From: Corticimicrobacter populi
GTDB taxonomy: Bacteria > Pseudomonadota > Gammaproteobacteria > Burkholderiales > Burkholderiaceae_B
NCBI RefSeq assembly: GCF_003123725.1
Contig: NZ_QETA01000002.1
Span: forward strand, 372,001 to 436,000
Length of the DNA stretch: 64,000 bases
Direction: 5' to 3'
The notes under the pieces are model-generated. The model did no database searches and was not told where the DNA came from. It worked only from the letters and a program-made list of their open reading frames with translations. The position numbers were made by a program, and so were the translations under genes. Shown in pieces: positions 15,757 to 33,011 of this stretch (position 1 is its first letter; the number at the start of each line of letters is the position of its first letter).

Positions 15757-15767
15757 GCGGGATGGCG

Positions 15768-15798: not shown

Positions 15799-15801
15799 GG
15801 C

Positions 15802-15809
15802 ATGAAAAA
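15802..15809. other. Left attachment core of the island
   Basis: ATGAAAAA, the reverse complement of TTTTTCAT, the 8-bp target that I recall as used by Tn4371-family elements. The same octamer occurs at 30850-30857 beyond the integrase gene. Together they bracket about 15 kb of foreign cargo. Confidence 0.75.
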
Positions 15810-16080: not shown

Positions 16081-16326
16081 TCAACTTGGCTTCGGAGGCG
16101 CGACCTTGCCCGCGCCTCCCTTCCTGAATCCCCGATCCCCGGCCATGAACGCCTCCAGCATGTGCGGGATCAGCGTGGCCGCATCGATCGCTTCGCCATA
16201 CGCCTGCGCGTGCAGCGCGGCGTAGCGGTCGAGGTCGGCTTTCAGGCTAGCCGGGCAAGCGAAGGTCAGCTTCGTGGATTCCGTTTTCGGCAGCGGCCCG
16301 AGCCGCAGCTTCTTGGTCGTGCTCAT
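16081..16326 (-). CDS. DUF2274 protein, relic of the trb conjugation operon
   Basis: 81 residues, starting MSTTKKLRLGPLPKTESTKL, with the conserved pattern SLKADLDRYAALHAQAYGEA and LIPHMLEAFMAGDRGF. In Tn4371-type elements and related plasmids this small protein is encoded directly after trbI; its function is unknown. The ATG overlaps a TGA (ATGA) belonging to an upstream frame that now holds only FNRGASR before the insertion sequence begins, which I read as the last residues of trbI. With the rest of the trb operon gone, it is likely an unexpressed leftover unless the insertion sequence supplies a promoter. Confidence 0.8.
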   Translation of the reverse strand: MSTTKKLRLGPLPKTESTKLTFACPASLKADLDRYAALHAQAYGEAIDAATLIPHMLEAFMAGDRGFRKGGAGKVAPPKPS

Positions 16327-16346
16327 CGAGAAGCCCCCCGGTTGAA
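16323..16346 (-). pseudogene. Probable 3' remnant of trbI
   Basis: Seven codons reading FNRGASR plus TGA, translationally coupled (ATGA) to DUF2274, cut off by the IS left end. Assigned only because trbI is the gene expected here and because the coupling is preserved; the peptide alone proves nothing. Confidence 0.35.
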
Positions 16347-16409
16347 GGGTTCTACCCCGTTAAGACGGACACTTCAGAAACGCGTCATACTGGACGTAAA
16401 GGAGTGTGA

Positions 16410-16697
16410 GTGATGAAACGCAAGAAATACAGTGCCGAATTCAAAGCGGGAGCGGTTGAACAGGTGCGCCGGTCGGATGTCAGTTGTGCCCAGGTCGCTC
16501 GGGAGTTGGGTATAGCCTCGGACTTGCTCTCTCGCTGGAAGCGGGAGGCTGATACGCAAGGCTCCAAGGCCTTTATTGGTAGTGGAGCTGCACGTGATGA
16601 GGAAGTAGTGCGACTAAAGCGGGAGTTGACCCGAGTTCAGAAGGAGAGGGATTTTTTGCGCGCAGCGGCAACGTTCTTTGCCAGGGAGTCGTCCTGA
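16410..16697 (+). CDS. IS3-family transposase OrfA
   Basis: 95 residues with the helix-turn-helix of IS3-type OrfA (YSAEFKAGAVEQV, CAQVARELGIASDLLSRWKRE) that binds the terminal repeats, followed by a leucine-zipper-like coiled coil (EEVVRLKRELTRVQKERDFL). The end of the frame contains the slippery heptamer T TTT TTG used to produce the OrfAB transposase. Confidence 0.93.
   Translation: MMKRKKYSAEFKAGAVEQVRRSDVSCAQVARELGIASDLLSRWKREADTQGSKAFIGSGAARDEEVVRLKRELTRVQKERDFLRAAATFFARESS
16652..16658 (+). promoter_or_regulatory. Slippery heptamer for -1 frameshifting in the IS
   Basis: T TTT TTG falls exactly on the codon phase of orfA (GAT TTT TTG), giving X-XXY-YYZ. OrfB lies in the -1 frame and is open across this point, so slippage here would fuse OrfA to OrfB. 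Confidence 0.7.
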
Positions 16698-16741
16698 GAT
16701 ATCAGGCCATCGAGCGTTGTCGCCATGAGTTTCCCATCCGA

Positions 16742-17557
16742 ATGATGTGTCGTTTGCTGCGGGTATCATCAAGTGGTTTTTATGACTGGTTATTGCGCCC
16801 GGTCAGCACGCGCCAGAAGGAAAACCAGCGCTTGCTCATCCTCATTCGTCAGATGCACGCAGATAGCCAAGGCGCGTTAGGGGCTCCTCGCATGCATGAA
16901 GACCTGGTGGAGCGAGGAGAGACGGCCAGCAAGAATCGCATTGCACGCTTGATGGCTGGCGATGGTCTTCAGGGCTGGCCGCGCAGAAGAAAACGGGGGC
17001 AGCGTGGGAAGCAGGAAACACCGATGCCTCAGGTCGAGAATATTCTTGCGCGAGATTTCAGTGCACAAGAGCCAGAGACCAAATGGGTGACGGATATTAC
17101 GGAGATCAAAACCGGAGAGGGCGTACTTTACTTGTGCATCGCGCTGGATCTGTACAACAAATTGGTGGTTGGCTGGTCGATGCATCACCGCCAGGATCGT
17201 CAGATGGTGATGCGTGCTGTGGAGATGGCTATTTGGCAACGCCAAGGCGTTGGCAGAGTTATTCTGCACTCGGATAGAGGTAGCCAATTTCGCAGTGGTG
17301 ACTATCAGGCGTTGCTGGTACGCAATTGGCTGATCTGCTCAATGAGTGCTGTGGGCCATTGTGGCGACAACGCGGCCTGCGAAGGATTCTTTGGCATGCT
17401 CAAACGTGAGCGAGTCAATCGCAAGACATACCGGACGATGGATGTCGCCAGGGCCGATGTATTCAACTACATTGAATGCTTCCATAATCCGCGTATGCGG
17501 CGCAGAATTGCCAAGATTGACCAGCAGTTTTCCGATCTTTTAGAGGCGTCCGTTTAA
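16742..17557 (+). CDS. IS3-family transposase OrfB (DDE integrase domain)
   Basis: 271 residues from the first ATG, but the frame is open further upstream (RYQAIERCRHEFPIRMMCRLL), as expected if it is made as an OrfAB fusion. N-terminal HTH_21-type region, then the rve integrase core with catalytic Asp in WVTDITEIKTGEG, Asp in VILHSDRGSQF and Glu in NAACEGFFGMLKRE. All three catalytic residues are present and no frame disruption is seen, so the copy could be active. Confidence 0.94.
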   Translation: MMCRLLRVSSSGFYDWLLRPVSTRQKENQRLLILIRQMHADSQGALGAPRMHEDLVERGETASKNRIARLMAGDGLQGWPRRRKRGQRGKQETPMPQVENILARDFSAQEPETKWVTDITEIKTGEGVLYLCIALDLYNKLVVGWSMHHRQDRQMVMRAVEMAIWQRQGVGRVILHSDRGSQFRSGDYQALLVRNWLICSMSAVGHCGDNAACEGFFGMLKRERVNRKTYRTMDVARADVFNYIECFHNPRMRRRIAKIDQQFSDLLEASV

Positions 17558-17601
17558 TCGGGGTAGAACCCCTTTTCACAGTTCCACAAAGGGGGATTCC
17601 G

Positions 17602-18606
17602 ATGCTTAAGAAAAAATTCCAAGACGCTCTGGCGAACGCACGCATCGCCGCGCAAGACACCTATCTTGTTCATCTCAATAACGCTGTCGCGGCCATCGAT
17701 GCGAGGCAGGCAGCGGATCCTGAGCTTCAAGCCTATGCGTCCGCGTTGAATGCATTGCTTGACGATTCAAGCTTTGGCGTCAACCCGCACTTGACCAACA
17801 AATTCGCACAGATTCTTGGCGAAGCGCACTTTTGGCTCATGTGTCTTGACAAAGGACTTCGGTTGACGCGCATCGCCGAAGTCAAGAACAAGAAAACGCC
17901 AGACTTTTCAGCTCCAGTCGGCAGCCAGTCCATTTACTTTGAAGTGAAGACGCTGTCGGTTGTGGGGGGCGATGCAGGCATCGCGGACGCCCTGCACTCG
18001 TCACTTGACGCGCACATCGACTTAGAGGCTCAGCAGCGAGCCGGCGCTCGCGTTGCCATTGCGATGTCGGAAGCGCAGCCCTACGGCGACAAGGTCAAGC
18101 ATGATCAGACCTTGTTGAGCGTCATCAATACGCTCGTCGAGAAAGCCCGCGGAAACATCAAGGCAGATCAGTTCGCGATGCCGAACACGTTCTTGGTCAT
18201 CAACCTCAGCATTATTCCGCCATTCATCACGGAACCCAAGGCCTTGAGACCTGCATATCCCGACGACTACATGTTTCCCAAAGCTGTCACCGGCGACCTT
18301 TGGACTCTCGCCTTTGGCAGGACAGGGATGCCCATCTTGGGCATCCCTGAATTCGAGGGAAAGCCATGCGTCGAAGGTTTGTTCGACAAAGTCGGCATCC
18401 TGGCAGATCAAGAATTCTCCGCTGTCGCTGGATTAATTTTTATGATCCATCCGTGGCAGCGGCCTTCGGAACTTTGGGGACTTTTCCGCGGCGCTGACCG
18501 CACCCAGTGGGAAGACGGGAATCCTGATTTGCTGCAACAGCTTCAAGCGCTCACTGGCAAGCTTTGGAACGACTGTGGTGACACGAACGGGTGGCAATTG
18601 CAATAG
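17602..18606 (+). CDS. PD-(D/E)XK nuclease-like protein of unknown function
   Basis: 334 residues not assigned to a named family. It shows a restriction-endonuclease-fold signature: Glu74 in ILGEAHFWL, Pro100-Asp101 in KKTPDFSAP, and Glu114-Val-Lys116 in IYFEVKTLS, spaced as in PD-(D/E)XK nucleases with the Glu on a preceding helix. The N terminus is a basic helical segment and the C terminus a tryptophan-rich region (LWGLFRGADRTQWED). It begins 30 bp after the IS end, so the IS may have removed a partner gene or may provide transcription. Richer in A+T than the chromosomal core. A role in defence is inferred from fold and context only. Confidence 0.6.
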   Translation: MLKKKFQDALANARIAAQDTYLVHLNNAVAAIDARQAADPELQAYASALNALLDDSSFGVNPHLTNKFAQILGEAHFWLMCLDKGLRLTRIAEVKNKKTPDFSAPVGSQSIYFEVKTLSVVGGDAGIADALHSSLDAHIDLEAQQRAGARVAIAMSEAQPYGDKVKHDQTLLSVINTLVEKARGNIKADQFAMPNTFLVINLSIIPPFITEPKALRPAYPDDYMFPKAVTGDLWTLAFGRTGMPILGIPEFEGKPCVEGLFDKVGILADQEFSAVAGLIFMIHPWQRPSELWGLFRGADRTQWEDGNPDLLQQLQALTGKLWNDCGDTNGWQLQ

Positions 18607-18750
18607 TTCATAGGCCGACATGGGTAACAGCCATGACTCTCATTGCAGGGGTGTGTAGTCACGAAGAAATGAGCTGACCGGTCGTGGCTGAGCTAAATAT
18701 GCGGGAGAGCAGCGGGGTACTTTGCAGCACCCCAAGAGCCGAAGATCCAT

Positions 18751-19101
18751 TCAGACAACGATCCGCCCGGCCAGCCGCGCGTCGCGCGCGTAGGCGCTCA
18801 ACCGCATCTCGGCGCGGAACGACAGGTCGCGCTCGATCGGCAGGCCTAGTCGGCCGCGCACCGTCGCCAGCTCGCCCATGCTGACCCAGCCGATCTCCGG
18901 CGCCCCCAGCCCCAGGTCGCAAAGGCCGAAGGCGTGATCGTGGTCATCGGGATCAATCTAGGTCAACAGCCAGGTCGCGCCGGCATTCGGCGTGAACAGC
19001 TTGACCACGGGCGCCGGGTCGAAGTCCGGGTTCCCCAGCGATTCGCGGCCGTTGGCCAGCAGCACGATGCGCTGCTCGTCGGTGATGAGTGCGTGGTTCA
19101 T
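18751..19101 (-). pseudogene. DUF2958 protein gene interrupted by an in-frame amber codon
   Basis: Reading the minus strand from the ATG at 19101 gives MNHALITDEQRIVLLANGRE... to ATWLLT, then TAG at 18960-18958. The same frame continues without a break as IDPDDHDHAFGLCDLGLGA, GWVSMGELATVRGRLGLPIE and RDLSFRAEMRLSAYA to TGA at 18753. The whole pattern (FTPNAGATWLLT, FGL, ELG-like GAPEIGW, R-G-GLPIERD) matches DUF2958 proteins carried on conjugative elements, where the residue at the stop is normally Glu (E-I/F-D). One G-to-T change (GAG to TAG) explains it. About 116 codons in total. Confidence 0.8.
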
Positions 19102-19544
19102 GGTGAACTCCTGAAAGGTTGCCTGGCGGAATTGCCCAGCCCTTCCGGGGCACGGCGCAGCGCAAGGAGTCAGGGGGCGCAGACGGCCGCCAGGACGCAA
19201 GCGCGCTCGGCGCGCGCCGCCCTTGACGGCGAGAACGCCGTGATACGGTGAAGGGAACAGCAAGACCGCCCACACCCTGCCCAATAGACACACCCGTCTT
19301 TGAGCAAGCGGAGCGCGCAGGCCCGCGAGGGCCGAAGGCGTCAGGGATCAGAGCCGAATTGATGAGATTCGGCACGAGGCGCGGGGCGGAGCCCGCGAGC
19401 CCGACGGCGGAACGCCGGGACGCCGGGACGCGACACAGTACCTGCATGCGTGCAAAACGCCTGCGCTCTGGCAAACGCCTTGTAACATGTATGGGCAGCG
19501 GCGGGCCGGCATTTGTGCGGCGCTTCTAGAAAACGAGAACCTTT
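19102..19544. other. Non-coding, GC-rich stretch upstream of the DUF2958 relic and the Gabija-like pair
   Basis: 443 bp between divergent starts. No reading frame on either strand looks like protein: frames of up to about 170 codons exist but are Arg/Pro-rich frame shadows of GC-rich sequence. It probably holds the original leader of the DUF2958 gene and the promoter of the nuclease-helicase operon; no specific element could be named. Confidence 0.5.
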
Positions 19545-21683
19545 ATGCACATCTCCAAGCTAAGCCTGGTCAACTACAGAAACTTCGCCAACACCAAACT
19601 CCGGTTCCAGAAGGGCATCAACACCATCATTGGCGAAAACGGATCAGGTAAAACGAACCTGTTTCGAGCGATCAGGCTACTGCTCGATGACAACATGATC
19701 CGATCCGCCTACCGGTTGGATTCCACGGACTTTCATAGAGCTTTGGGAAGGTGGCAAGGCCATTGGATCATCATCAGCCTTGAATTCGAGGAGATCTCCG
19801 CTGATGAAGCAGTCCAGGCCTTGTTCCGGCACGGGACGGGCGGCATCGATGATGACGCAATCGGCAAAGCCACCTACAACCTCATCTTCCGCCCAAAGAA
19901 AGAGATCAGGCTTCGCCTCTCTCAATTGGACGATGGCGACCACGCTGGTCTCGCTGCGATCCTGGCTCCTGTCACTCTGGACGACTACGAAACCATCTTC
20001 ACGGGCCGGAGCGACGCTGACTTCAATGACGAGGCCTTCTACAAGGAGGTGGTCGGTGACTTCGAGAACGCCAGGTTCAACGAAGAAATCGAGTTTCCCG
20101 CCATCGGCGCCAAGATTCCCAGCGTGTTGTCCGTTTCCAAGGAGATTTCCTTCACCTTCGTACAGGCACTTAGAGACGTTGTATCGGAGTTCCACAACAA
20201 CAGGACCAATCCACTTTTGTCGCTGCTCAAAGGCAAAAGTGGTGATATCGACCCAGTGGCATTCCAGCTCATCACCGACGGGGTGAAGGCTTTGAATGAC
20301 TCGATCGAGGCGTTGCCGGATGTGCAAGCCGTCCGGACCGATATAAGGGACACCATCAAGGATGCAGCGGGCGAGGCGTACTCTCCCTCATCCTTGTCGA
20401 TCAAGTCCGATCTGCCTGACGAAGCTGACAAATTGTTCCAGTCGCTCAAGCTGTTTGTCGGCGAATCGGGAGAAGGCCACGAAGGGCCGATCCATGAGTT
20501 GAGCCTGGGTGGCGCGAACCTGATCTTCCTCACCTTGAAACTGCTGGAATTCAAGTATCAGAAAGCCAAGCAGTCGATCGCCAACTTCTTGTTGATCGAA
20601 GAGCCAGAGGCCCACATCCACACACACATTCAGAAGACGCTGTTCGACAGACTTCAGTACGACGACACCCAGATCATCTACTCGACCCATTCGACGCATA
20701 TCTCAGAGGTCAGCAACGTCCAGAACGTAAATATTCTTGGCCGGGAGCGAGATCGGTGCGAGGCCTACCAACCGTCCACGGGCCTGGGCCCAGAAGAGAT
20801 CGGCAACATCCAACGCTATCTGGATGCGGTTCGCAGCAACCTGTTGTTTGCCAAGAGTGTCATTCTGGTAGAGGGCGATGCCGAAGAAATCCTGATCCCG
20901 ATTCTGGTCAAGAAGGTGCTGGGCATCAGTCTGGATGAACTCGGAATCAGTTTGATCAACATCCGAAGCACCGGTTTCCAGAACGTAGCCGTTCTTTTCC
21001 ACGATGATCGAATCCGAAAGCGGTGCAGCATCGTCACCGACCTCGACAAGTCCATCATTGACACAACGCCCGCGGGGGGCGACCCCGAGGAGGTGCTTCG
21101 GCGCAAGAAAAAATACCAAGCCTCTCAGGAGAAGGGCATCGCCAGGAAGGTGATTCTGGAAGAGTCGTTCAAAGACAACCCTTGGGTTACGTCATTTTTT
21201 TCTCCCCACACTTTCGAGGTTGATTTCGTTGCTGCTGGAAATGGGCGCAAAGTGGTCGGCATACTTCCTGATGTCTATAAAGACGCGCCAACTATCGCAA
21301 CGGCCACAGCAGAGCTTGAGTCACCGGACATCGCGCTGTACGGCCAGCGCGTGCTGACCATGGCGGGCAACTATGGCAAAGGGTGGTTCGCCATTTTGCT
21401 GGGGAAGAAGATCGATCCACAAACAGCCATCCCGGCGTACATCCTTGATGCCATCGCCTTCGCGCACCCAGTAGTCACAAAAGAAGTCTGGTTCAATGTG
21501 CTCAGCTATCGCGTCAACTACATTGATGCGGAGGATCTTGTCACCGCATCGGCGGTCTTTGACGGATTCAGGGCCAAATTGCTGGCTTTCAGAAAGGGAG
21601 ACCTCGATTTCGTTGACATCAGAAACGAAATGCTGGCCACCTTCCCCGACGATCGCATCAACGACATCCTCAGGGTCTTTTAG
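19545..21683 (+). CDS. gajA: OLD-family ATPase/TOPRIM endonuclease, Gabija GajA-like
   Basis: 712 residues. N-terminal ABC-type ATPase: Walker A GENGSGKTN (30-38), signature-like ELSLGGANL (318-326), Walker B FLLIEEPEAH (348-357) and His switch STHSTH (380-385). C-terminal TOPRIM nuclease: LVEGDAEE (441-448, Glu443) and TDLDKS (498-503, the DxD pair). In GajA this assembly forms a tetramer that nicks DNA when nucleotide levels fall during phage infection. The UvrD-like helicase gene starts 2 bp after its stop, the defining Gabija (class 2 OLD) layout. It is longer than the about 580-residue reference GajA, so it may be a divergent or related OLD-helicase system. Confidence 0.82.
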   Translation: MHISKLSLVNYRNFANTKLRFQKGINTIIGENGSGKTNLFRAIRLLLDDNMIRSAYRLDSTDFHRALGRWQGHWIIISLEFEEISADEAVQALFRHGTGGIDDDAIGKATYNLIFRPKKEIRLRLSQLDDGDHAGLAAILAPVTLDDYETIFTGRSDADFNDEAFYKEVVGDFENARFNEEIEFPAIGAKIPSVLSVSKEISFTFVQALRDVVSEFHNNRTNPLLSLLKGKSGDIDPVAFQLITDGVKALNDSIEALPDVQAVRTDIRDTIKDAAGEAYSPSSLSIKSDLPDEADKLFQSLKLFVGESGEGHEGPIHELSLGGANLIFLTLKLLEFKYQKAKQSIANFLLIEEPEAHIHTHIQKTLFDRLQYDDTQIIYSTHSTHISEVSNVQNVNILGRERDRCEAYQPSTGLGPEEIGNIQRYLDAVRSNLLFAKSVILVEGDAEEILIPILVKKVLGISLDELGISLINIRSTGFQNVAVLFHDDRIRKRCSIVTDLDKSIIDTTPAGGDPEEVLRRKKKYQASQEKGIARKVILEESFKDNPWVTSFFSPHTFEVDFVAAGNGRKVVGILPDVYKDAPTIATATAELESPDIALYGQRVLTMAGNYGKGWFAILLGKKIDPQTAIPAYILDAIAFAHPVVTKEVWFNVLSYRVNYIDAEDLVTASAVFDGFRAKLLAFRKGDLDFVDIRNEMLATFPDDRINDILRVF

Positions 21684-21685
21684 CC

Positions 21686-23485
21686 ATGTTCGAATGGGAC
21701 AAGGATGATCTGAATCCGGAGCAGGAAGCTGCCATTCTGGAGCCTGGAAGCGTTTTTCTCATAGCATGCCCTGGCAGCGGAAAGACCCGCACGCTGACCT
21801 ACAAGATCGCCTATGAGTTGTCCAGACTGGAATCGAACAAGCAGTTCGTTGTTGCAATCACGTATACGCACCGCGCGGCCGACGAGATCCATGAGCGCAT
21901 TGAGGACCTTGGGGTGGACACATCCCGACTATGGATAGGAACGATCCATTCGTTCTGTCTTGAGTGGATACTGAAGCCGTACGGCATCTATCACGAGGCG
22001 TTGGATCGCGGCTTCCGCGTGATCGATCAGCACGAACGCGAGAAGCTTCTGGAAGCGCTGTGCAAGCCTTACCAGAAACCAAAAATAACGGTATGGGACT
22101 GTGACTTCTATTTCACCGAAGCTGGCTATGTGCTTTCTTGCCAGCAGGATTGGAAGCATGCCGGCTTGCACGCCATATTGGGCCAGTACTTCGAGGTTCT
22201 GCAGGAAAGTCGGCAGATAGACTTCGAATTCATTCTCTACTATGCGTACCAACTCATCGCCCGTCGGCCTGCAATCAGCACCCTTCTGGCGCAGTTGTTC
22301 TCTTTCGTGTTGGTCGACGAGTATCAGGACACCAAGCGAATTCAGTATTCGATCATCACGGCCATCTTGAAAGCCGGTCACGGGGCGACGAAGGCCTTCA
22401 TCGTTGGAGATCCCAACCAAGCAATTTACCAATCGCTCGGCGGATACCCGATTGCCTTCGAGGATTTCAAGGCGATGGCTGGCATCGACATTGAGGAGCT
22501 TCAGCTATCGAGGAATTACCGCTCGTCCGAGCGCATTATCAATTACTTCGGAAACTACAACGTCCACGCCACTCTCATCGAGGCCGCTTCCAGCGAAAAG
22601 GCGTATCCAAGCCTTATTTCGTTCAACGACGCGGTGAATAAGGCGGGTTTGGAGGCGGAGCTGATTCGACTCATTCGCTTCAACATCGAGACGGTTGGAA
22701 TAGCCCCGCATGAGGTATGCGTGCTTGCACCGCAGTGGATGCATTTGGCAAGTATGACCCGCCGCCTTGTCGCGAGCATGCCGGAGTATCCATTCGATGG
22801 TCCCGGCATGGTCCCCTTCGCAAGAGATCCAGATAATTTTTGGTACAGGCTTTCAAAGATTACCCTTACACAGGCGTCGCCGGGCATGTATGTGCGAAGA
22901 CTGCGATGGGCCGGGGAGATTCTGAATGACTTGGAGGCTGCGGGTGTGAGCGTATCCAAGCTCACGCGGAAGTCATTTTTGAGGGAGTGCAACGCGATCA
23001 AGATCGACGAAGAGGATGGCCTCAACTACCTCCGTGCATTTTTCGAAACGCTGTTTGCGAACCTAGCGATCGACTTTCGCCTCTTCACGCTCCTACGAGA
23101 ACATCACGACGCATTCTTCGAAAGTTCGCAGGTGCGGATTGAAAAACTGAAGAAGGAAGGTACCGAGATCATCGGCGACATTGCGACATTCCGGAAGGTT
23201 TTTCAAAGCAGGAGCGGGATCACTATTTCCACGATCCACGGAATCAAGGGCGCAGAGTTCGATACGGTCATCGCCTATGCCTTACTGGAGAACGTTCTTC
23301 CCAATCGGAATGACCCGAATGGCCAAGAGAGTGCGATGAAATTGCTGTATGTCATCGGCTCACGTGCAAGGAAGAATCTGCACCTAATCTCGGAGCGAGA
23401 ACGCATCGATGGATATACCCGTGACGAGTACCAAACAACTTTGAAGCTTGCTGCATGCAATTTCAAGTACAACCAGATTCCATAG
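21686..23485 (+). CDS. gajB: UvrD/Rep-like superfamily 1 helicase, Gabija GajB-like
   Basis: 599 residues with the full SF1A motif set: Walker A CPGSGKT (28-34), Ia TYTHRAA (59-65), GTIHSF (85-90), DEYQDT (211-216), GDPNQAIY (241-248), LSRNYRSSERI, STIHGIKGAEFD and the motif VI variant KLLYVIGSRARKNL. In Gabija, GajB binds the GajA tetramer and its ATPase responds to DNA ends. The start is 2 bp after the preceding stop, so the two are co-translated. The reference GajB is about 494 residues; here the region between motifs IV and V is expanded (roughly residues 330-500). Confidence 0.85.
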   Translation: MFEWDKDDLNPEQEAAILEPGSVFLIACPGSGKTRTLTYKIAYELSRLESNKQFVVAITYTHRAADEIHERIEDLGVDTSRLWIGTIHSFCLEWILKPYGIYHEALDRGFRVIDQHEREKLLEALCKPYQKPKITVWDCDFYFTEAGYVLSCQQDWKHAGLHAILGQYFEVLQESRQIDFEFILYYAYQLIARRPAISTLLAQLFSFVLVDEYQDTKRIQYSIITAILKAGHGATKAFIVGDPNQAIYQSLGGYPIAFEDFKAMAGIDIEELQLSRNYRSSERIINYFGNYNVHATLIEAASSEKAYPSLISFNDAVNKAGLEAELIRLIRFNIETVGIAPHEVCVLAPQWMHLASMTRRLVASMPEYPFDGPGMVPFARDPDNFWYRLSKITLTQASPGMYVRRLRWAGEILNDLEAAGVSVSKLTRKSFLRECNAIKIDEEDGLNYLRAFFETLFANLAIDFRLFTLLREHHDAFFESSQVRIEKLKKEGTEIIGDIATFRKVFQSRSGITISTIHGIKGAEFDTVIAYALLENVLPNRNDPNGQESAMKLLYVIGSRARKNLHLISERERIDGYTRDEYQTTLKLAACNFKYNQIP

Positions 23486-23579
23486 CCCTTGGGATACTCG
23501 TTGCCGTCGCCCCATATACATGTGGCAGAGATTTTTTCTTGCTGTAGGGCGGTTCGGCCCTAGAAACACAGAGGTGTCA

Positions 23580-25595
23580 ATGGCACAAGGGTCCAGCACC
23601 TGGCAGGTGAGAAGCGCGACTTCCGCAGATCGGCGCACGATCTCCGGCAGCAGCGTGCCGCTGAAGTGGGCCCACGATGCGCGCACCGGCGAGCCTCGCT
23701 ACATCCACGATGCCGAGGTCTCCGAAGGTCGGGCCGAATGCCAATGCCCGTCCTGCCATCTTTCTCTGACGCCGGTGCTGGCTGGTCAGCCTCTGCACCG
23801 CAACCCCACAGCGCACTTTCGCCACCCCAAGGGCGCTCAGAAAGATGACTGCACGCTTGTCGCTGCGCGGCTCGCGGCGATTCGAAACCTCCAGGAGCGA
23901 GGTTTCATAGATCTGCCTCGACACAGGAGATCGGCTTCTGCCGTCGGGTTCAGCGGTCAAGGGTATGAGGGCTGGGCCGAGATACCGGCACGACGCGTCT
24001 CGATTGCCGGCGCGGTACTCCACGACCATGCCACTGCGCTGCTGACGCTGGACGACGGCAGCGAACTCCTGGTCGATCTCACCGGCCAGCGCAAGCTTGG
24101 CGGCGATGGCCATTGGCGGGCGATCGTTACGGTATCCCTGTCCGATCCCGCCATCGCGATGATGGCTCCAGAAGAGATCCGCGCACGGCTGCGGTTGCTC
24201 CCAGACATCCAGTGGTGCACCCATTGGAACGACCAGGCTCTGCAGGCGGCAGCTGCCGCACAGGCCCGTCAGGCCGCGCTGGACGCCATGGATGCATGGG
24301 GAGATGCGGAGGAAACCTCGTTTCATCGCAGCCTGTCTCCTGATCTGGATCCTGCCGTCGCCCTGCAACTGCGTCGCGAGACGCTGCTGCACAGCGAAGT
24401 GAAGGCGATCCTGGAGCAGTCCTCGCACATCGCAACGCCGGGCCTCGATGTGGAGGTGATCCGCGACGCCCCTGACGAGTTCAGCGGTGAATGGGAGAGC
24501 AACACGCTTCGCATGCAATGGTTGACCGGATCCACGACGCTGTCGCTTGAAAAGACTCGGCTGGAAAAGCAGCAGGGCAGCATCGTCCCCGACGTCATCA
24601 GCACGCTGCGCGAGCCTCGGCCTTTCATCTTCGGGGTGGTGGAAACCTGGCTCGATGATGGATTCGAGGAATTGATCGAAGACAGCCACAGCAGCCAGCG
24701 TTGGCCTGAGACCTTGCTGGTTGAAGTCACCGTGACGCACGGCATCGATCAGGAAAAGCTGCGCCGCATCCAGGCGCTTGACCTTCCAACATTGGAAATA
24801 GACATCGGATCGCTTGGCGGCCGGGTCACCCGGGAGGGACTGCGTCGCCTGGTGGTGGACGAGACCATCGGCAAGCGCTGGGTCCATCACCCAGCCTGGC
24901 GTTTTCGTCGCCAACTCCTCGAAATGGAATTGGACCAGCACCCGGTCACAGTCCGCTTCCAGCAGCGCTTGACCGAACTGAGGCGCCCTCGGCTGCTCGC
25001 GACACCGGCATCGGAGTGGGCATCGATCTATCTGGCGGCCGCCACGGAATTCCACGATACCAACACCCGCATCGACAAGGCCAGGCGAACGCATCGAGGA
25101 GAAGGCCCCAAGCCCGAACTATTGGGCAAGGACAGCGAGCCCTGGCAGCGGCTCACGGAGGCAGCCGAAGCACTTGCCGTTCACGGCTACCCAGGCGCAG
25201 CCGACCCCGAGATGGCGGGGCTTGCGGGCATCGTCCCAAGGCTGCTGTCGATCCAGCATGACCGCGGCGTCGGCTATGCATTCGACACGGGTTATCAGGT
25301 TCTCAACGCCATCATGCAGAGCGGCGCCGACTACCAGCAATGGCATACGCTGTACCCCATGGCGGTCAAAGCCTACGGCCTGGAGTCCAGATTCACGGCC
25401 AAGCAGGCTGAGCGCTACGCATCCTGGCGTCAAAGGATCATTGACAAGGTGGAAGCCGGCGATGCAACCCACCTGCGGCCGGCGCGCTACGACGCGGTAC
25501 TCAGCGTGCTTTTCCCCGACATGGCACCGCGCCTTGCGAATGGCTACGGCAGAGAGCCACGGCCCGCACAGTTGGAACAGGAGTCTGGCGGCTGA
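23580..25595 (+). CDS. CoiA-like nuclease with zinc-finger-like N terminus
   Basis: 671 residues. The N terminus has a Cys/His cluster like that of CoiA-family proteins: C56-x2-C59, H79, H82, C91, in the context CPSCHLSLTPVLAG and NPTAHFRHPKG. The middle and C-terminal part (about 270-410) shows the CoiA/PD-(D/E)XK pattern: SEVKAILEQ, VPDVISTLR (Asp338), LLVEVTVTHG (Glu382) with following Lys393, then LPTLEIDIGSL. The rest is helical. It is co-oriented with the helicase gene after a 94-bp gap that contains a small hairpin (TAGGGC/GCCCTA near 23545-23562), and it is visibly more GC-rich than the helicase gene, so it may be a separate acquisition. GAGGTG precedes the ATG. Biological role unknown. 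Confidence 0.65.
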   Translation: MAQGSSTWQVRSATSADRRTISGSSVPLKWAHDARTGEPRYIHDAEVSEGRAECQCPSCHLSLTPVLAGQPLHRNPTAHFRHPKGAQKDDCTLVAARLAAIRNLQERGFIDLPRHRRSASAVGFSGQGYEGWAEIPARRVSIAGAVLHDHATALLTLDDGSELLVDLTGQRKLGGDGHWRAIVTVSLSDPAIAMMAPEEIRARLRLLPDIQWCTHWNDQALQAAAAAQARQAALDAMDAWGDAEETSFHRSLSPDLDPAVALQLRRETLLHSEVKAILEQSSHIATPGLDVEVIRDAPDEFSGEWESNTLRMQWLTGSTTLSLEKTRLEKQQGSIVPDVISTLREPRPFIFGVVETWLDDGFEELIEDSHSSQRWPETLLVEVTVTHGIDQEKLRRIQALDLPTLEIDIGSLGGRVTREGLRRLVVDETIGKRWVHHPAWRFRRQLLEMELDQHPVTVRFQQRLTELRRPRLLATPASEWASIYLAAATEFHDTNTRIDKARRTHRGEGPKPELLGKDSEPWQRLTEAAEALAVHGYPGAADPEMAGLAGIVPRLLSIQHDRGVGYAFDTGYQVLNAIMQSGADYQQWHTLYPMAVKAYGLESRFTAKQAERYASWRQRIIDKVEAGDATHLRPARYDAVLSVLFPDMAPRLANGYGREPRPAQLEQESGG

Positions 25596-25720
25596 ACTCT
25601 CGCGCGATCATCAACTTGTCGCGGCATTCTGAAGGGCCGGTCAGGACTGACAGCGGCGACTCACTGCTATTGGACGTCAACCGAGCAAGTGATTCCATCC
25701 ATACGGCTTTCCAGGCTGTC

Positions 25721-27034
25721 CTAAGCGGGACGAGAAGGACCAAGAAGATCCGACAGCGCCTGCTCCCGTGCCATTCCTGGTTGCCGGGACAGTCGAACCA
25801 ATGCGCCTGCGGTTCGCCTTGCCAGACTGCGTGCCAACAATCTTTGCTTCGTTGAAATGCGTTGAACTCCAGACCGCCCATGAATGAATGCGCTTCTCAA
25901 GTCGAACAGACTCTCATAGTCCCGCTCTGCCTTCTCTTCGCCGACCGCGGCACGTAGGCGGGCTGCGACGCGCTTGGTCGCCGATAGTTTGGGACGGGGA
26001 TCGTTATTGGGTCGCAACCCTCGCCTGTGGTCGCTCTCCAAGCCCAATGCCGCCTCGATGACCGTCAGGTGGGCGATGAACTCGTCGATGCCACTTGCGA
26101 GGAACGCTCGCACAAGAAAATGCACCACCGGGGTTTCGAACAGGGAGGTCGCACGAGCGGCCTGCACTTCATTCCATGCAGTGTCGTTGACCCATTGCAG
26201 TCCCGCTGTCGCCGCGTTGTCGAGGGGCAGTATGGTGCGGCGCTCGATTTCTATTTCCTCGCCCCACTCATCCTGGTAGATGTAAGGTTCAAAGGACAGA
26301 GTCTCTGCGCTGGGCGGGAGAGTGGGCGATACGAACAAGTCGTCGTCCAGCGTGTATATCCATGGCACACGGAATCCGCGCCAATCGACCTCGTTCAAGG
26401 TAGACCAATCCTCCCACGGGGCGAGGAGAAGGAAAAAAAGCGCATCCTCTACGGCCTGGGGAAAACGGCCACGATGCGGCTCGATCTCACCAAGATCACG
26501 CGAGAAATCCATGTCCCCGAATGAGAACGCGCGCGCATTCGGCTTTGCTTGAACAAGTACTTCTTCCTCCACGACCAGCCATTGGAACTCGGACAGGCGC
26601 TTCGCGTCCGAAGTCAAAGTATGGAAGTGGCGGCTCAGTCTCGGCCAGTCGAAGAGATCGTCTAGTTCTGCCGCGCTGAACCATGCAACGCGTGCGTTGC
26701 CGAACGTCATCGAGGGCAGTTCGTCGGCAAGATCGAGAGGACAGAGATGGCGCCGGGTGATGGAACTGCGCGAGAAGGCTTTCACCAACATCTCTGCCAC
26801 GGTCGGCAAGTCGAGAGCCTGCACCCTGTGACCGGCAGGCAAGCCACATGGCAGGCCAAGGGATCTGAGTGCGTTGCTCAGTGCAAAGGTGGCCTTGCCG
26901 CTGCCAGTGCGTTGCGCGATCAATTCGCTCAGCGCTGTGAAGGCGGGTGCCGACAACAGGTTGTCGGGGCCTGGCGGCGGAATCCGCCACAGGGCTTCCA
27001 ACGTGGCGAGAAGTTTCTCGTCTACCGATATCAT
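25721..27034 (-). CDS. HEPN-type protein, third gene of the HEPN operon
   Basis: 437 residues, no named family recognised. The C-terminal domain resembles Apea-like HEPN proteins: LTVIEAALGLESD, then FDLRSAFIHGRS with Arg380 and His385 in the R-x4-H arrangement that forms the RNase site of HEPN domains. The first 300 residues are Trp-rich and acidic (WFSAAELDDLFDWPRL, LLLAPWEDW, VPWIYTLDDDLF) and may be a sensor. Its ATG overlaps the stop of the preceding gene (ATGA at 27031-27034). It converges on the CoiA-like gene. RNase activity is inferred from the motif only. Confidence 0.6.
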   Translation of the reverse strand: MISVDEKLLATLEALWRIPPPGPDNLLSAPAFTALSELIAQRTGSGKATFALSNALRSLGLPCGLPAGHRVQALDLPTVAEMLVKAFSRSSITRRHLCPLDLADELPSMTFGNARVAWFSAAELDDLFDWPRLSRHFHTLTSDAKRLSEFQWLVVEEEVLVQAKPNARAFSFGDMDFSRDLGEIEPHRGRFPQAVEDALFFLLLAPWEDWSTLNEVDWRGFRVPWIYTLDDDLFVSPTLPPSAETLSFEPYIYQDEWGEEIEIERRTILPLDNAATAGLQWVNDTAWNEVQAARATSLFETPVVHFLVRAFLASGIDEFIAHLTVIEAALGLESDHRRGLRPNNDPRPKLSATKRVAARLRAAVGEEKAERDYESLFDLRSAFIHGRSGVQRISTKQRLLARSLARRTAGALVRLSRQPGMAREQALSDLLGPSRPA

Positions 27035-27765
27035 CTAACCACCTCATCGGATGCAGCCGCCGGCCACCATGACCGCTGCGTCCGCTCCTGCGCAAGCCTG
27101 GCTTCGAGGCTGGGGTGCTTGCGTTCGATGCTCTCGTTGTAGATGTACTCCGCATCGTCCCAGAAGGTGACGATTGCCGCGCAGAATAATCGAAGTCGAT
27201 CCAAAGGAATGTCCATCAATTCGACGGGAGGAGCAGTCGCCGTGACTTGATTCGCATTGGCCGGGGCCAAAAGGTAGTCCGGCCACAGTTCGGGGCAATG
27301 CCTGGCCAACTCGGTGGCAGAGGGCCCATCGCCATGGCGGCATGCGTTACCCAACAGGTGCAACTTGTCCAACTCGGAGAAGCTGGGGAACGCCTCAAGC
27401 CCTATGCCGCGAAGTTCAAGGAACAACTCGCGAAGTCTGCGCCAGTTTCCCTTCTCTGCCTGAGCAGCCAAGCCTTCGTGCGGGCGCAACGCCGCAGCAC
27501 ATCCACGCAGGTAACCACGCAGCTGACGCTCCCAGATCGACTGGATGGAAAGGCCAAAAGCCATCTTGGTCTCGCGGAGCACGTCTCCCGCATCGGAAAG
27601 GGCAAACGCGGCCGCCGGCTCATCGCTGCGGCTAAGTATGTGCATCTTCTCTTCGAGCACCTGTATCGATGGCACGATGACATCGTCAAGGAATGACTGA
27701 ACGCTGATCCCGTGCATCGCCGTGGCGACATCGGCGTGACAGTTCTGCCAACGAAAAATGGTCAC
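27031..27765 (-). CDS. Helical HEPN-like protein, second gene of the HEPN operon
   Basis: 244 residues, predicted almost entirely helical, no named family recognised. The most striking stretch is LDKLHLLGNACRHGDGPSA (Asn140, Arg143, His144), a motif seen in HEPN-like families where Asn/Arg/His line the dimer cleft, although the canonical R-x4-H spacing is absent. It starts with GTG (27765) overlapping the TGA of the upstream gene by four bases, and its own stop overlaps the next start by four bases, so the three proteins are translationally coupled and probably act together. Confidence 0.5.
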   Translation of the reverse strand: MTIFRWQNCHADVATAMHGISVQSFLDDVIVPSIQVLEEKMHILSRSDEPAAAFALSDAGDVLRETKMAFGLSIQSIWERQLRGYLRGCAAALRPHEGLAAQAEKGNWRRLRELFLELRGIGLEAFPSFSELDKLHLLGNACRHGDGPSATELARHCPELWPDYLLAPANANQVTATAPPVELMDIPLDRLRLFCAAIVTFWDDAEYIYNESIERKHPSLEARLAQERTQRSWWPAAASDEVVR

Positions 27766-28397
27766 ATGTTGTCTCCAAGCCGATGCTCAGTGATCAAGCC
27801 GCGGTAGGCGAAATTGATCAGGTCCCGCACTAGCTCAAGAAGCCCAGCGTACGGAAGACCGTCAAACGGGTCCCCATGCGCCATCTTGTTTCGGAGCTGG
27901 GCCAGGGTGGGCTCAGATTCACCCGTAAGTTGACCGACGACGCAGGCATTGCAGCGCACGGCGATGGGCAAGTTGTCATCGCTCAGGCCGTCGTACTCAA
28001 CTAGGTGTTTGAGCAAGGCCGCAAGCGTTCGCTTGTTCTTCGCAACCCGACCTCCATGGCTGCCAACCAATGCGATTTCCAGAGCTGTCAGCGCAACTAG
28101 TTCGCCGGCTTTGATCAACTCCGCATCGCTCCAACCGAGCAGATACAGCTTTTGTGCGCGAGCGTACTTCAGGCGCACAACCGCTGGGACGCGGACGTCA
28201 AGATCGAGATCGCGAAGGAATTTCTGCCATTGGCTGACCTCGTGGAACTGCATCAAGCCCGCTGGGTTTCCCCGACTCGGCCAAGGCAGTACGAGCGGTT
28301 CAAGGCGCGGCGGAAGGCAATTCTCTAAAAGGTCCATGTCAGAGCAAGTCACACTGAATTGAACGGTGATGTCAACGTAAGTAGGAAACTCGGCCAC
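27762..28397 (-). CDS. HEPN-type protein, first gene of the HEPN operon
   Basis: 211 residues. The C-terminal half looks like a HEPN domain: a long helix AGELVALTALEIALVGSHGG, a second helix RTLAALLKHLVEYDGL, and the motif QLRNKMAHGDPFDG with Arg169 and His174 (R-x4-H). The N-terminal 90 residues may be a beta-rich recognition part (TYVDITVQFSVTCSD). First gene of a three-gene operon in which all junctions are four-base overlaps. Partner, target and toxicity are unknown; the fold call rests on the motif and the helical pattern. Confidence 0.6.
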   Translation of the reverse strand: MAEFPTYVDITVQFSVTCSDMDLLENCLPPRLEPLVLPWPSRGNPAGLMQFHEVSQWQKFLRDLDLDVRVPAVVRLKYARAQKLYLLGWSDAELIKAGELVALTALEIALVGSHGGRVAKNKRTLAALLKHLVEYDGLSDDNLPIAVRCNACVVGQLTGESEPTLAQLRNKMAHGDPFDGLPYAGLLELVRDLINFAYRGLITEHRLGDNM

Positions 28398-28464
28398 GGC
28401 CTCAGCCCGCTAACCATCCGCAGTGTTTGACACAGCACGATCAGCAGCGCGGTCTTGTCATCGT

Positions 28465-28692
28465 CTACCAGAGACGCCACCATCGCCGCGATTCCTCGCG
28501 AGCCGACAGCGGCCGCATGTCCAGGACGACCTGCGTGGCTTCGTCGCTGTTGTTCCTTCCCCGGCGCCTCAGTTCTGCCTCGTACAGGTGCGCAGTTCCA
28601 CGCGCATCCTTGGAGCCACGCAGCGCCTCAGCGCGCCAATGCCGCGCCAAATCGGCCAGTTCTTCGTCGGGTATCCCTTGTAAAGCCGTCAT
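28465..28692 (-). CDS. Small conserved hypothetical protein of mobile elements
   Basis: 75 residues starting MTALQGIPDEELADLARHWR, continuing EALRGSKDARGTAHLYEAEL. I recognise the DLARHWR/ALRG-x-x-DARG-x-AH-x-x-E pattern as a small hypothetical protein often found in integrative elements and plasmids, function unknown. Predicted as two or three charged helices. It lies between the HEPN operon and the toxin-antitoxin pair, on the same strand. Confidence 0.55.
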   Translation of the reverse strand: MTALQGIPDEELADLARHWRAEALRGSKDARGTAHLYEAELRRRGRNNSDEATQVVLDMRPLSAREESRRWWRLW

Positions 28693-28743
28693 GCGTCAGC
28701 GAGTCCTGAGCGGCCTCAGCCGGTCAGATGCACGAGCTTCCTT

Positions 28744-29049
28744 TCAGATGATGGCCTGCAGGCCCTTGTCCGCGATCACGTTGAGCAGCTTGAGCGCAGG
28801 CCCCGCCGGCCGAGTCTCGCCTTGCTCCCACTTGCGCACGGTCGAAGCCGACGTGTGCAGGTGGTGCGCGAACACAGGCTGGCTGAAGCTCAGCGCTTCG
28901 CGCAGCCGCCTGATGTCCATAGCGCTGAACTCGCGCACCGGCGGCGGACAGATGGCGTCGAACTGGCGCATGGTCACTTTGCCGATCGCGCCGGCCTCGT
29001 GCAGCGCGGCCAGGTCGCTGCGCAGCGATTCAATGAGCTTGCTCGTCAC
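28744..29049 (-). CDS. higA: HigA-type antitoxin with XRE helix-turn-helix
   Basis: 101 residues starting at a GTG (VTSKLIESLRSD). The C-terminal part is a helix-turn-helix: MDIRRLREALSFSQPVFAHHLHTSASTVRKWEQG. That C-terminal HTH and the toxin-first gene order are typical of the HigB2/RelE (PF06296)-HigA branch. Its start overlaps the toxin end by 20 bp. It should bind the palindrome at 29425-29449 alone or with toxin to repress the pair. Confidence 0.85.
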   Translation of the reverse strand: MTSKLIESLRSDLAALHEAGAIGKVTMRQFDAICPPPVREFSAMDIRRLREALSFSQPVFAHHLHTSASTVRKWEQGETRPAGPALKLLNVIADKGLQAII

Positions 29050-29416
29050 AATGCACCTCCAGTAGAACTCCTGCCTGCAATGCCTGAACCAACGCTGCCG
29101 CGGGAAGGTCCAGGAACACCTTGCCTGCGTACTGCAGCGCCTTCTTTTCGTCCTGCCCGATGTTCGCCGTGGCGCTCTTGGGAAACCCGTGCAAGAACAC
29201 GTACCGGGTGCCGATGCGGGCCAAGAGCAAGGTGCGGTAACCACCGCTCTTGCCGCCGCCTGCACGCGCCACGCGCTTCTTGTAGAGGTGGCCGCCCAGA
29301 TCCGCATCGATCAGGCCACTTTCCATCTCCCGCACCGCTTTGCACAAAGCAGCATCGGACAGTTTCTCGCCCGCCTGCCACCGAGCGAAGTCCTTGCGCT
29401 TGAGAACCTGCGGCAA
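29030..29416 (-). CDS. higB: HigB2/RelE-family toxin
   Basis: Probable ribosome-dependent mRNA endonuclease. Family pattern: VLKRKDFARWQAGEKLSD, MESGLIDADLGGHLYKKRVA, GGGKSGGYRTLLLAR, RYVFLHGFPKSATANI and ALQYAGKVFLDLP. I place the start at TTG 29416 (MPQVLKRK), where family similarity begins and just downstream of a TATAAT (29431-29426) inside the operator palindrome; this would give a nearly leaderless mRNA. The same frame is open to a GTG at 29467 that overlaps the integrase stop by four bases, which would add 17 residues encoded across the palindrome. 128 residues with the chosen start. Confidence 0.8.
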   Translation of the reverse strand: MPQVLKRKDFARWQAGEKLSDAALCKAVREMESGLIDADLGGHLYKKRVARAGGGKSGGYRTLLLARIGTRYVFLHGFPKSATANIGQDEKKALQYAGKVFLDLPAAALVQALQAGVLLEVHCDEQAH

Positions 29417-29424
29417 CGAATCAC

Positions 29425-29449
29425 AATTATACCCGAGACGGGTATAATT
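29425..29449. promoter_or_regulatory. Perfect palindromic operator/promoter of the toxin-antitoxin pair
   Basis: AATTATACCCG and CGGGTATAATT form an 11-bp perfect inverted repeat around an AGA spacer. Each arm contains a TATAAT-type -10 element, so bound HigA would cover the promoter. It sits between the integrase end and the toxin start. It is strikingly A+T-rich at its edges compared with its surroundings. Confidence 0.8.
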
Positions 29450-29463
29450 TTCCAGCGTGCCCG

Positions 29464-30675
29464 TCACGGTGCTGCCACCAGGTCTGTGGCCAACCGTGCG
29501 CCCACCACCGTCTTGCGCCGCTGGGCCACCAGTTCGGCCGCTTCGCGCACCGGCTTGTCCTCGGTGTGGACATACCGCATGAACATTGCCACGGTCTTGT
29601 GCGCAGTCAGCGCCATGCCGACCTTCACGGGGATGCCCGAGTTGGCGATGTCGGTCGCCGAGCGATGACGGATGCCATGTGTGCCCACGTGGCTCACACC
29701 GGCACGCTTGAGGATGCGGGTCCAGCCGCCGTAATACTCACCCGTGGTCATGTGCTGCCCTGGGTGGTTCGGCGACGGAAACACATGAGGGCAACCGTCC
29801 TGACGCAGCGCGGTGGACAGCAGCCGGTAGGCCTCCTCACTCAGGGGCTTGGACATCCCACCGGTCTTGCTGTCGGGCCAGACCACGCGTCGGTGCTCCA
29901 GGTCCACCCAGTCCCATTGCAGCGTGACGATCTCGGAGCGTCGGCCCGCGAACTCGAACTGCAGCCGGATGGCCAGTGGCAGGACGGCGTGATCCAGTCC
30001 CAGCCCATCGGTTTCCAGATAGTCGAGATACCGGAACAGCTTGCCCATCTCCTCGTCGCTGATGAGGTGTGTGGCCTTGCCGTTAGGGTACATCGGGACG
30101 TGGCGGCAGGGGTTGGTGCCGTCCGGCCGGTAGCCCCAGACCTCAGCCAAGTTGAACATCTTGCGCATCACGCTGAACGTGCGGTTTGCCTCGGCCGGCT
30201 TGTGCGACCACTTCTTCATCGCTATGGCCACATCCGGCCGCTTTACGTCCTGAACCTTCATCCGGCCTAGCATCGGGACGATGCAGCGGTCGATGACCGC
30301 CTGATATCCGCGCTGCGTACTGGGCTTGTTGCGCTGCTTGGAGTGGTCCTCCATGGACTTCTCGCACAGTTCCTTGACTGTCGGTGCGGCTCGGGCAGCA
30401 GCCTTGGCGGCGCTGGGATCGCCGCCCTTACGTACCTTCGCCAGCCACTCCTGGGCCAGCGAGCGGGCCTGCTCGACGGTCAGTTCCCCGTACACGCCCA
30501 GGGCGGGCTTGCGGCGCTCGCCGGCGTTAGTGCGGTACTGCAGCATGAACACCTTGCGCCCTGCTGGTGTAACCTTGCACAGGAAGCCGGGCACCAGCGT
30601 GTCCCGGAGTTCGACGGCCAAGGCCTGGGGTTGTGCCGCATCGACTGCGGACTTGGTGAGCTTGAGTTTTGCCAC
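29464..30675 (-). CDS. int: Tn4371-type tyrosine integrase
   Basis: 403 residues from the GTG at 30675, which has AAGGAG 5 bp upstream; an in-frame ATG at 30732 would add 19 residues without a ribosome-binding site. N-terminal DUF4102-type arm-binding domain (MAKLKLTKSAVDAAQPQAL, LVPGFLCKVTPAGRKVFMLQ), SAM-like core-binding domain, and catalytic domain with Arg245 (GRRSEI), Lys270 (SKTGG), His333 and Arg336 (HGIRH), His359 (TAHKT) and the nucleophile Tyr368 (MRYVH). All catalytic residues are intact, so excision or integration may still be possible. It reads inward from the right attachment site 175 bp away. Confidence 0.95.
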   Translation of the reverse strand: MAKLKLTKSAVDAAQPQALAVELRDTLVPGFLCKVTPAGRKVFMLQYRTNAGERRKPALGVYGELTVEQARSLAQEWLAKVRKGGDPSAAKAAARAAPTVKELCEKSMEDHSKQRNKPSTQRGYQAVIDRCIVPMLGRMKVQDVKRPDVAIAMKKWSHKPAEANRTFSVMRKMFNLAEVWGYRPDGTNPCRHVPMYPNGKATHLISDEEMGKLFRYLDYLETDGLGLDHAVLPLAIRLQFEFAGRRSEIVTLQWDWVDLEHRRVVWPDSKTGGMSKPLSEEAYRLLSTALRQDGCPHVFPSPNHPGQHMTTGEYYGGWTRILKRAGVSHVGTHGIRHRSATDIANSGIPVKVGMALTAHKTVAMFMRYVHTEDKPVREAAELVAQRRKTVVGARLATDLVAAP

Positions 30676-30849
30676 GATGACTCCTTGAAAGACCCAGTTT
30701 CCAAGAGCCTCATGGGAGCCATGGGGGCACAAGCCGGGTCAGGTTTGGGAAAGCACCGTCATATGTTGGACTCGCCTAAGTGATTGATAAACCTGCTGTA
30801 TCGGGCTTGGGCGTGGTCCAGCGAAGTTCGGTGCGGGAGACATGGTGAA

Positions 30850-30857
30850 ATGAAAAA
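30850..30857. other. Right attachment core of the island
   Basis: ATGAAAAA, identical to the left core at 15802-15809. Its A-run continues into the A/T tract of the groEL terminator, so the target site is CAT plus the U-tract of that terminator. Confidence 0.75.
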
Positions 30858-30891
30858 AACGGCACGGGAGCGACCCGTGCCGTTTTTTTTT
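30853..30891 (-). terminator. groEL terminator
   Basis: CGGCACGGG (30860-30868) and CCCGTGCCG (30874-30882) form a 9-bp perfect stem with a 5-nt loop, flanked by seven A and nine T, so it can work on both strands. For groEL it lies 52 bp after the stop and keeps a seven-U tract despite the island insertion next to it. Confidence 0.93.
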
Positions 30892-30942
30892 GCATGTACT
30901 CGATGCCGGCCGAAACCGGCACCGTGCTCAGGCGGAAGGGAC

Positions 30943-32607
<1,665 letters not shown>

Positions 32608-32659
32608 TTATCGGGAGATCGCGCCAGATGGGCGCGCTGTCTCGGTATGCCGGACGAGC

Positions 32660-32947
32660 TTACTCGACGACGGCGAGGATTTCTTCTTCGCGAATGACCA
32701 GGACTTCCTGGCCATCAACCTTGACGGTCTGGCCGGCATACTTGCCGAACAGGACCTTGTCGCCGACCTTCAGGTCGACCGGCTGGAGCTTGCCGTCTTC
32801 GGTGCGCTTGCCCGGGCCGACAGCGATGACTTCACCCTGGTCGGGCTTTTCAGCGGCATTTTCGGGGATAACGATACCGGAGGCAGTGGTGCGCTCGTTG
32901 TCCAGGCGCTTGATGATCACGCGATCATGCAGGGGACGCAGGGCCAT
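32660..32947 (-). CDS. groES: Co-chaperonin GroES (Hsp10)
   Basis: 95-residue subunit of the heptameric lid. [20 protein letters not shown], the mobile loop [14 protein letters not shown], and [20 protein letters not shown] are diagnostic. The ATG at 32947 follows the operon leader carrying a CIRCE element. First gene of groES-groEL. Confidence 0.98.
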
Positions 32948-33011
32948 GGATAAACTCCTGTGATGGTGAAGAAAATGAAATAATGACCGGATTGTCAGGA
33001 GCAGGGAGTGT

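Follow-up and report, generated by a model that had tools for sequence, protein, structure and literature searches.

Three genes in the genome of Corticimicrobacter populi overlap one another in a setting of mobile and defence genes. Do they form a single immune system, or is one of them the core that other systems share? The window, that is, the whole stretch of 64,000 nucleotides (nt) analysed here (contig NZ_QETA01000002.1, positions 372,001–436,000), carries gene A (27762–28397, 211 amino acids, aa), gene B (27031–27765, 244 aa) and gene C (25721–27034, 437 aa). Because all three open reading frames (ORFs) are on the minus strand, they are transcribed in the order A-B-C. The stop of A overlaps the start of B by GTGA (27762–27765, ...ACATGTGACC...), and the stop of B overlaps the start of C by ATGA (27031–27034, ...TTAGATGATAT...). 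These ORFs and junctions agree with an earlier note on this DNA, which took the three genes for a candidate undescribed defence or toxin system of HEPN proteins. The main new point of the present analysis is that C is portable: the same gene is attached to several unlike anti-virus systems.

Gene C and its partners

A profile-guided scan of 84,980 genomes gave at least 79 C loci, and tblastn searches of plasmids yielded 28 records with C, 15 with B and 27 with A. The 88 C records compared here are a biased sample, because the genome loci were found by two peptide patterns and their number is a lower bound. They also contain near-copies (L018/L021/L023/L024/L034, and L061–L066 with L083); L005 and L053 carry an identical C, and L009 and L069 represent the same plasmid. 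Partner classes were defined as blastp clusters, and one to three representatives of each cluster were scanned in Pfam or PADLOC. According to these classes, the partner upstream of C is a TIR gene in 25 records, a nuclease-like gene (cluster 1) in 7, gajAB in 4, nSTAND3 in 2, a KAP gene in 2 and AbiEii in 1. The arrangements A-B-C, B-C and A-C are present in 12, 5 and 3 records, and no partner was recognised in 27.

In all 25 TIR-C records, the TIR gene and the best C start share 1 or 4 nt. On the octopine-type Ti plasmid NC_002377 (L005 5989–7326 and 4877–5992), a TIR gene overlaps C by 4 nt, probably an unstudied defence pair on a classical plasmid. The nSTAND3 gene is spaced –4 and +2 nt from C in its two records. 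The gajA-gajB-type genes are located 28–57 nt before C in four records (PADLOC E values of 4e-215 and 6e-171 in L004; gajA is split into two ORFs in L037), the KAP/PifA-like NTPase gene 105 nt before it in two, and the AbiEii gene 58 nt before it in one. In L044 (9322–15254), a PDDEXK_1 nuclease gene and an overlapping gajB-like (UvrD-type helicase) ORF, an AddAB-like pair, are located about 17 nt after C. The cluster 1 gene, which encodes about 200 aa without a family match, stands before the TIR gene or, in its 7 records, directly before C; a 184-aa ORF (cluster 3), partly antisense to it, was excluded from the partner counts. By eye, this 200-aa family (e.g. L042 6152–6856 and L007 5382–5981) shows a D...ECK signature and is PD-(D/E)XK-like.

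When the ten partner labels are mapped onto a maximum-likelihood tree of 69 C proteins, they need 21 changes, some of which are losses since the label set counts 'none/other', compared with a least possible number of 9 and a mean of 43.5 for shuffled labels. These values indicate that the partners are partly inherited and often exchanged. The nearest relatives of the window C are found in a B-C locus of Halomonas (L010) and in a gajAB-C locus (L011).

A, B and C are inherited together. The pairwise distances of the three proteins correlate with coefficients of 0.983, 0.986 and 0.977 over 11 loci, and of 0.966, 0.983 and 0.958 over the 8 loci left after removal of near-copies; at most 1 in 5000 permutations was as high. 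Apart from the window, nine trio loci were measured, and B and C overlap by 1 nt in each. B-C is kept with A missing or broken in five records. The Halomonas C is 85% identical to the window C, and in that locus B-C is intact and A is reduced to a 91-aa remnant. Between the window and the Halomonas copy, B and C are under purifying selection, with nonsynonymous rates (dN) of 0.076 and 0.078 and synonymous rates (dS) of 0.35 and 0.39. In nine trio loci an extra gene is located just upstream of A, HNH_2 in six (L018 was scanned) and a CoiA-nuclease in three (L022 was scanned); upstream of A in the window, blastp in three forward frames gave no HNH or CoiA-type remnant. The proposal of a three-gene system thus holds in so far as the trio is conserved in other genomes and co-inherited. 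C is also found with many other partners or with none recognised, however, and the basic unit is therefore not the trio. The trio as a fixed unit was dropped, C being more widespread.

C might instead be an independent single-gene abortive-infection protein whose neighbours are merely piled up in islands, without any control by a partner. Some of the 27 records lacking a recognised partner hold a C locus that is broken or truncated at a contig end; others, Pseudomonas loci among them, look like true single genes, as this explanation would have it. The plasmids of Klebsiella, Pantoea and Serratia that were inspected have the nearest annotated upstream gene in the opposite orientation to C, and the spacing of gajAB, AbiEii and KAP (28–105 nt, not overlapping) is also in its favour. 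The short overlaps that TIR genes show in every TIR-C record and B in every measured trio locus, however, argue for a closer tie to C, as does the divergence of A, B and C in step. We consider an independent C unlikely.

Motifs and predicted folds

The motifs QLRNKMAHG in A, GNACRHGDG in B and FDLRSAFIHG in C are present at the residues given in the earlier note. On the minus strand, they correspond to RNKMAHG (R169–G175, 27873–27893, with H174), GNACRHGDG (G139–G147, 27325–27351) and the catalytic-type RSAFIHG (R380–G386, 25877–25897, with H385). R-x4-H by itself is worthless as evidence, because it is present in 33 of the 51 non-overlapping window ORFs of at least 150 aa. It was dropped as stand-alone evidence, and conservation decides. 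Of the 51 ORFs, three have the tighter pattern R[NSD]x3HG, A and C being two of them.

In C, residues R380, H385, G386 and E318 are invariant across all 73 aligned rows, whose identity reaches down to about 30%. The alignment consists of 69 rows (the window, 7 plasmid loci and 61 of the 79 genome loci) and four further plasmid loci; the 18 genome loci omitted are broken, cut or truncated, or near-copies. The R-x4-6-H of HEPN proteins is therefore conserved in C. The AlphaFold model of C, built from 62 rows, has a mean predicted local distance difference test (pLDDT) score of 90.9 and a predicted template modelling (pTM) score of 0.89. It is mixed alpha/beta to about residue 290, and then a helical bundle is formed by residues 303–415, with R380 at the end of helix 367–384. 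On the minus strand, the N-terminal part (residues 1–294) is encoded at 26153–27034 and the C-terminal bundle (residues 295–420) at 25775–26152. According to VIA-align 2, the eight best PDB rows fit residues 295–420 (96–112 residues, root-mean-square deviation 3.2–4.0) with Z scores of 6.5–5.7, and the ninth row with 4.9; values below 8, or below about 13 for helical bundles, can reflect a common arrangement. The eight rows (8xdj, 8xeh, 3o10, 2hsb, 2q00, 1wwp, 1ufb and 1wty) are HEPN structures; 8xdj, 8xeh and 3o10 are so titled or catalogued, and 1ufb and 1wty are ones that we take to be HEPN. In the excerpt of PMC3710099, 1wwp, 2hsb and 2q00 are catalogued as HEPN. The model and these rows support a HEPN bundle with an invariant R-x4-H in C, as the earlier note had proposed. 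For the N-terminal part no known relative turned up in the fold search, which barely probed residues 1–294.

The conservation of this motif bears on another explanation, in which C acts as a promiscuous neutraliser, resembling an antitoxin or a chaperone, and keeps many toxic immune effectors in check. A hyperpromiscuous antitoxin domain of toxin–antitoxin networks provides the pattern (PMC10440598, in the excerpt). One conserved gene, usually the last of its operon, does stand behind many unrelated upstream partners, several of them of toxic type (TIR, AbiEii and gajAB). A neutraliser would not need an invariant R-x4-HG, yet all 73 rows have it, and C persists in the records without a recognised partner. 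Such a role for C appears distinctly improbable.

In B, residues N140, R143, H144, G145 and G147 are identical in 22 of 22 rows. The position five before His is Gly (Ala in one) and never Arg in these 22, and R-x4-6-H is thus absent from B. HEPN families that keep the His without the Arg are known (PMC3710099, in the excerpt). The AlphaFold model of B, built from 16 rows, shows lower scores (pLDDT 77.8, pTM 0.75), and the motif is located at the end of helix 129–144. Its eight best VIA-align 2 rows have Z scores of 8.4–7.3, and six of them are titled HEPN or MntA-HepT; unrelated helical proteins come next at 7.2, and the caution about helical bundles applies to these scores too. Among the best rows, 5yep and 1ylm are presumably HEPN-type. 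B is thus predicted to have a HEPN-like bundle, less surely than C, which fits the description of the middle protein as HEPN-like; without the catalytic Arg, it is probably a pseudo-RNase (ribonuclease) subunit.

A is known from an ORF call and a conserved family. All 16 rows of this family share R169 and N170, and 12 of them keep H174. In one lineage (L018, L021, L023 and L024) H174 is replaced by Tyr, and B and C are retained there. The dN/dS of A is high in this lineage, 0.031/0.049 (L018–L021) versus 0.055/0.448 (L002–L022), as though A were degenerating in loci that retain B and C. The earlier note had read a HEPN motif in A; of this the conserved R169 stands, whereas the His is lost in one lineage and the profile comparisons are not significant, so that the assignment is drawn from the motif.

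These data also concern the possibility that A and B are an ordinary HEPN toxin–antitoxin pair, A being the toxin and B a pseudo-HEPN antitoxin, with C as an accessory. A pair of this kind is consistent with the R-N-x3-H that A keeps in 12 of 16 rows, with the HEPN-like predicted fold of B lacking the Arg, and with the occurrence of each of the two genes without C on plasmids. It fits poorly with the change of the A His to Tyr in a lineage where B and C stay, with the survival of B-C in the five records in which A is missing or broken, and with the lack of a nucleotidyltransferase match in A, B and C. We regard the pair as very unlikely.

Searches of Pfam, PADLOC and NCBIfam gave zero families for A, B and C at E 5 or better, where the HMMER filters may hide very weak matches; as the earlier note had supposed, no described family in these collections covers the trio. 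Only weak matches to families of unknown function were obtained in PHROGs (the best being B with phrog_19541, E 0.0023; A with PHROG 20216, E 0.25). PDB sequence profiles gave no credible match (best E 1.9 for C and 0.65 for A, none for B), and Foldseek against BFVD gave none at E 0.001. Among open-licence papers, the searches turned up none that names five accessions of the family, and none of those listed describes the family in its title or abstract.

Distribution and island neighbours

Carriers of C are mostly Alphaproteobacteria, together with Pseudomonas, Halomonas, Achromobacter and one Planctomycetaceae bin; a separate branch is located on plasmids of Klebsiella, Pantoea, Serratia and Erwiniaceae. 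Both C and B are rare: of 369 genomes of the class, the one that contains the window is the sole carrier of C, and B is present in 3 of 398 genomes of the phylum, this one included. No blastn match to the Erwiniaceae C was found in E. coli genomes. Among viruses, C was found neither in IMG/VR by the scan used nor in 50,697 phage records, and A was absent from IMG/VR; B is present in two contigs. In L100 (2963–6717), a contig classed as viral, B overlaps by 4 nt a gene for a 1013-aa AAA-ATPase, TrlF-like in look, and in L089 B stands after a methyltransferase-type operon. B may be a portable module too.

In the window, the trio lies in a defence island beside Gabija, a known defence system of the sort whose co-occurrence the earlier note had asked about. 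Both gajA (19545–21683, plus strand; PADLOC PDLC00072, 1054 bits) and gajB (21686–23485, plus strand; PDLC00127, 867 bits) are neighbours outside the trio, and these two genes (19545–23485) make up a complete Gabija system. Directly after gajB, a 673-aa protein (23574–25595, plus strand) shows a weak DUF7830 match (E 0.18) and, judged by eye, a CoiA/DruB-like zinc-finger start; it has no relative among the fetched loci. The trio is convergent with this gene and forms a separate operon from Gabija. Before Gabija, an IS3-like transposase (16742–17557, read by eye) is followed by a 334-aa protein (17602–18606, plus strand) with a VKT-type signature, which might be a nuclease; no match was found for it in Pfam or PADLOC. 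On the other side, RelE/HigB-like and XRE-like ORFs (28744–29467, minus strand), probably a toxin–antitoxin pair as read by eye, lie between the trio and an integrase-like ORF (29464–30732), and groEL (30943–32583) lies beyond it. No direct-repeat pair of at least 16 nt joins the island ends within 15700–31000, Rfam gave no match in 15000–33000, and the promoter and terminator scans gave results at chance level. A role of the trio as a CRISPR ancillary was dropped; no cas gene was recognised in the island, though no formal search was made.

Proposed role of C and known systems

Our preferred reading, which we hold to be evenly balanced between right and wrong, is that C is a partner-restrained HEPN RNase serving as a back-up abortive-infection effector in the A-B-C cassette. 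That the catalytic pair in the HEPN bundle never varies suggests an RNase, and the position of C as the last gene of tight operons behind exchangeable immune genes points to a partner-controlled effector. A-B-C would be one inherited defence cassette with C as its core. C would be a HEPN endoribonuclease of the metal-independent type (R380/H385) behind a new N-terminal part of about 290 residues. At rest it would be held inactive by co-made proteins, A and the pseudo-HEPN B in the window, and elsewhere by the TIR protein, the nuclease-like protein, gajAB or other partners. C would be released, or would dimerise, once a phage triggers, disables or remodels its partner. The freed C would then cut cellular RNA, tRNA being the usual target, and growth would stop, backing up the partner.

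Similar arrangements are described for other HEPN proteins. According to the excerpt of PMC3710099, PrrC is an anticodon nuclease that is kept inactive by its restriction partner and is released when phage T4 disables this partner. In a type IX retron, a HEPN dimer is kept sequestered and cuts tRNA once a phage protein has freed it (PMC13405049, in the excerpt), and HEPN RNases are proposed as back-up suicidal effectors beside BREX in that of PMC12839542. We infer for C the RNase activity, restraint by the partner, a phage trigger, an RNA target and protection of the population.

The likeness to these systems has limits. PrrC and RloC, like C, have a C-terminal HEPN RNase-type domain and are encoded with another defence system (PMC3710099, in the excerpt). 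They have an N-terminal ABC ATPase, whereas C is without a Pfam ATPase match, and the partners of C are of many kinds, not restriction systems only. The HEPN effectors associated with BREX share the proposed last-resort RNase role (PMC12839542, in the excerpt), but the C family is a different one, unnamed, with TIR, gajAB, STAND, KAP, AbiEii and A/B as partners; no BREX gene was recognised among the partner genes scanned. HEPN-MNT systems (HepT-MntA) provide the closest solved folds for B and some of the closest for C. A, B and C, however, have no nucleotidyltransferase Pfam match at E 5 or better, in keeping with the earlier note, which had recognised no MNT companion, and C has about 290 extra residues. 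ApeA, Abi2, AbiJ, AbiU2 and MAE_28990 are likewise HEPN proteins, stand-alone or two-domain, that have R-x4-6-H and belong to defence islands (PMC3710099, in the excerpt), but A, B and C gave no match up to E 5 to the models of these families in Pfam and PADLOC. Gabija adjoins the trio in the window, and gajAB-type genes are located just upstream of C in four other records. To our knowledge, Gabija is a two-gene system without a HEPN gene.

Several results weigh against a partner-restrained RNase. For neither C nor B did Foldseek find a PDB match with an E value of 0.001 or lower, and the Z scores of both are in the range where a common helical arrangement is possible. In hhalign, the pairs A-B, A-C and B-C have probabilities of 0.2–0.3 percent, which are not significant; the A-C alignment, itself not significant, places both R-x4-H motifs in register. 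A cannot be an essential catalyst everywhere, because its His is absent in 4 of 16 rows. The gajAB, AbiEii and KAP genes that do not overlap C could be island stacking, and the records without a recognised partner indicate that restraint by a partner is not always needed.

A broader form of the partner-restrained reading is possible but doubtful. In this form, C would be a portable RNase fuse, a single HEPN family whose new N-terminal domain serves for docking or sensing and which plugs into at least six unrelated immune modules (TIR, gajAB, nSTAND, KAP, AbiEii and the all-HEPN trio), each of which restrains C and releases it when attacked. Many first-line systems would in this way be protected by a single back-up effector. 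The window would then hold a HEPN-only complex of an active RNase, a pseudo-RNase and a variable HEPN-type subunit.

A HEPN effector tied to defence systems is known; what appears to be new is the C family, together with its form as a trio and its wide range of partners. If the partner-restrained reading is true, one shutdown RNase serves several unrelated immune systems, and this would account for the way in which various first-line defences come by a back-up of the abortive-infection kind. The PrrC-type guard principle would become testable in many systems, and names could be given to three unannotated families that are present in many soil bacteria and on plasmids, among them Agrobacterium plasmids of the octopine type and others. 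Where C is attached to a Gabija or TIR locus, that locus may behave unlike those without C.

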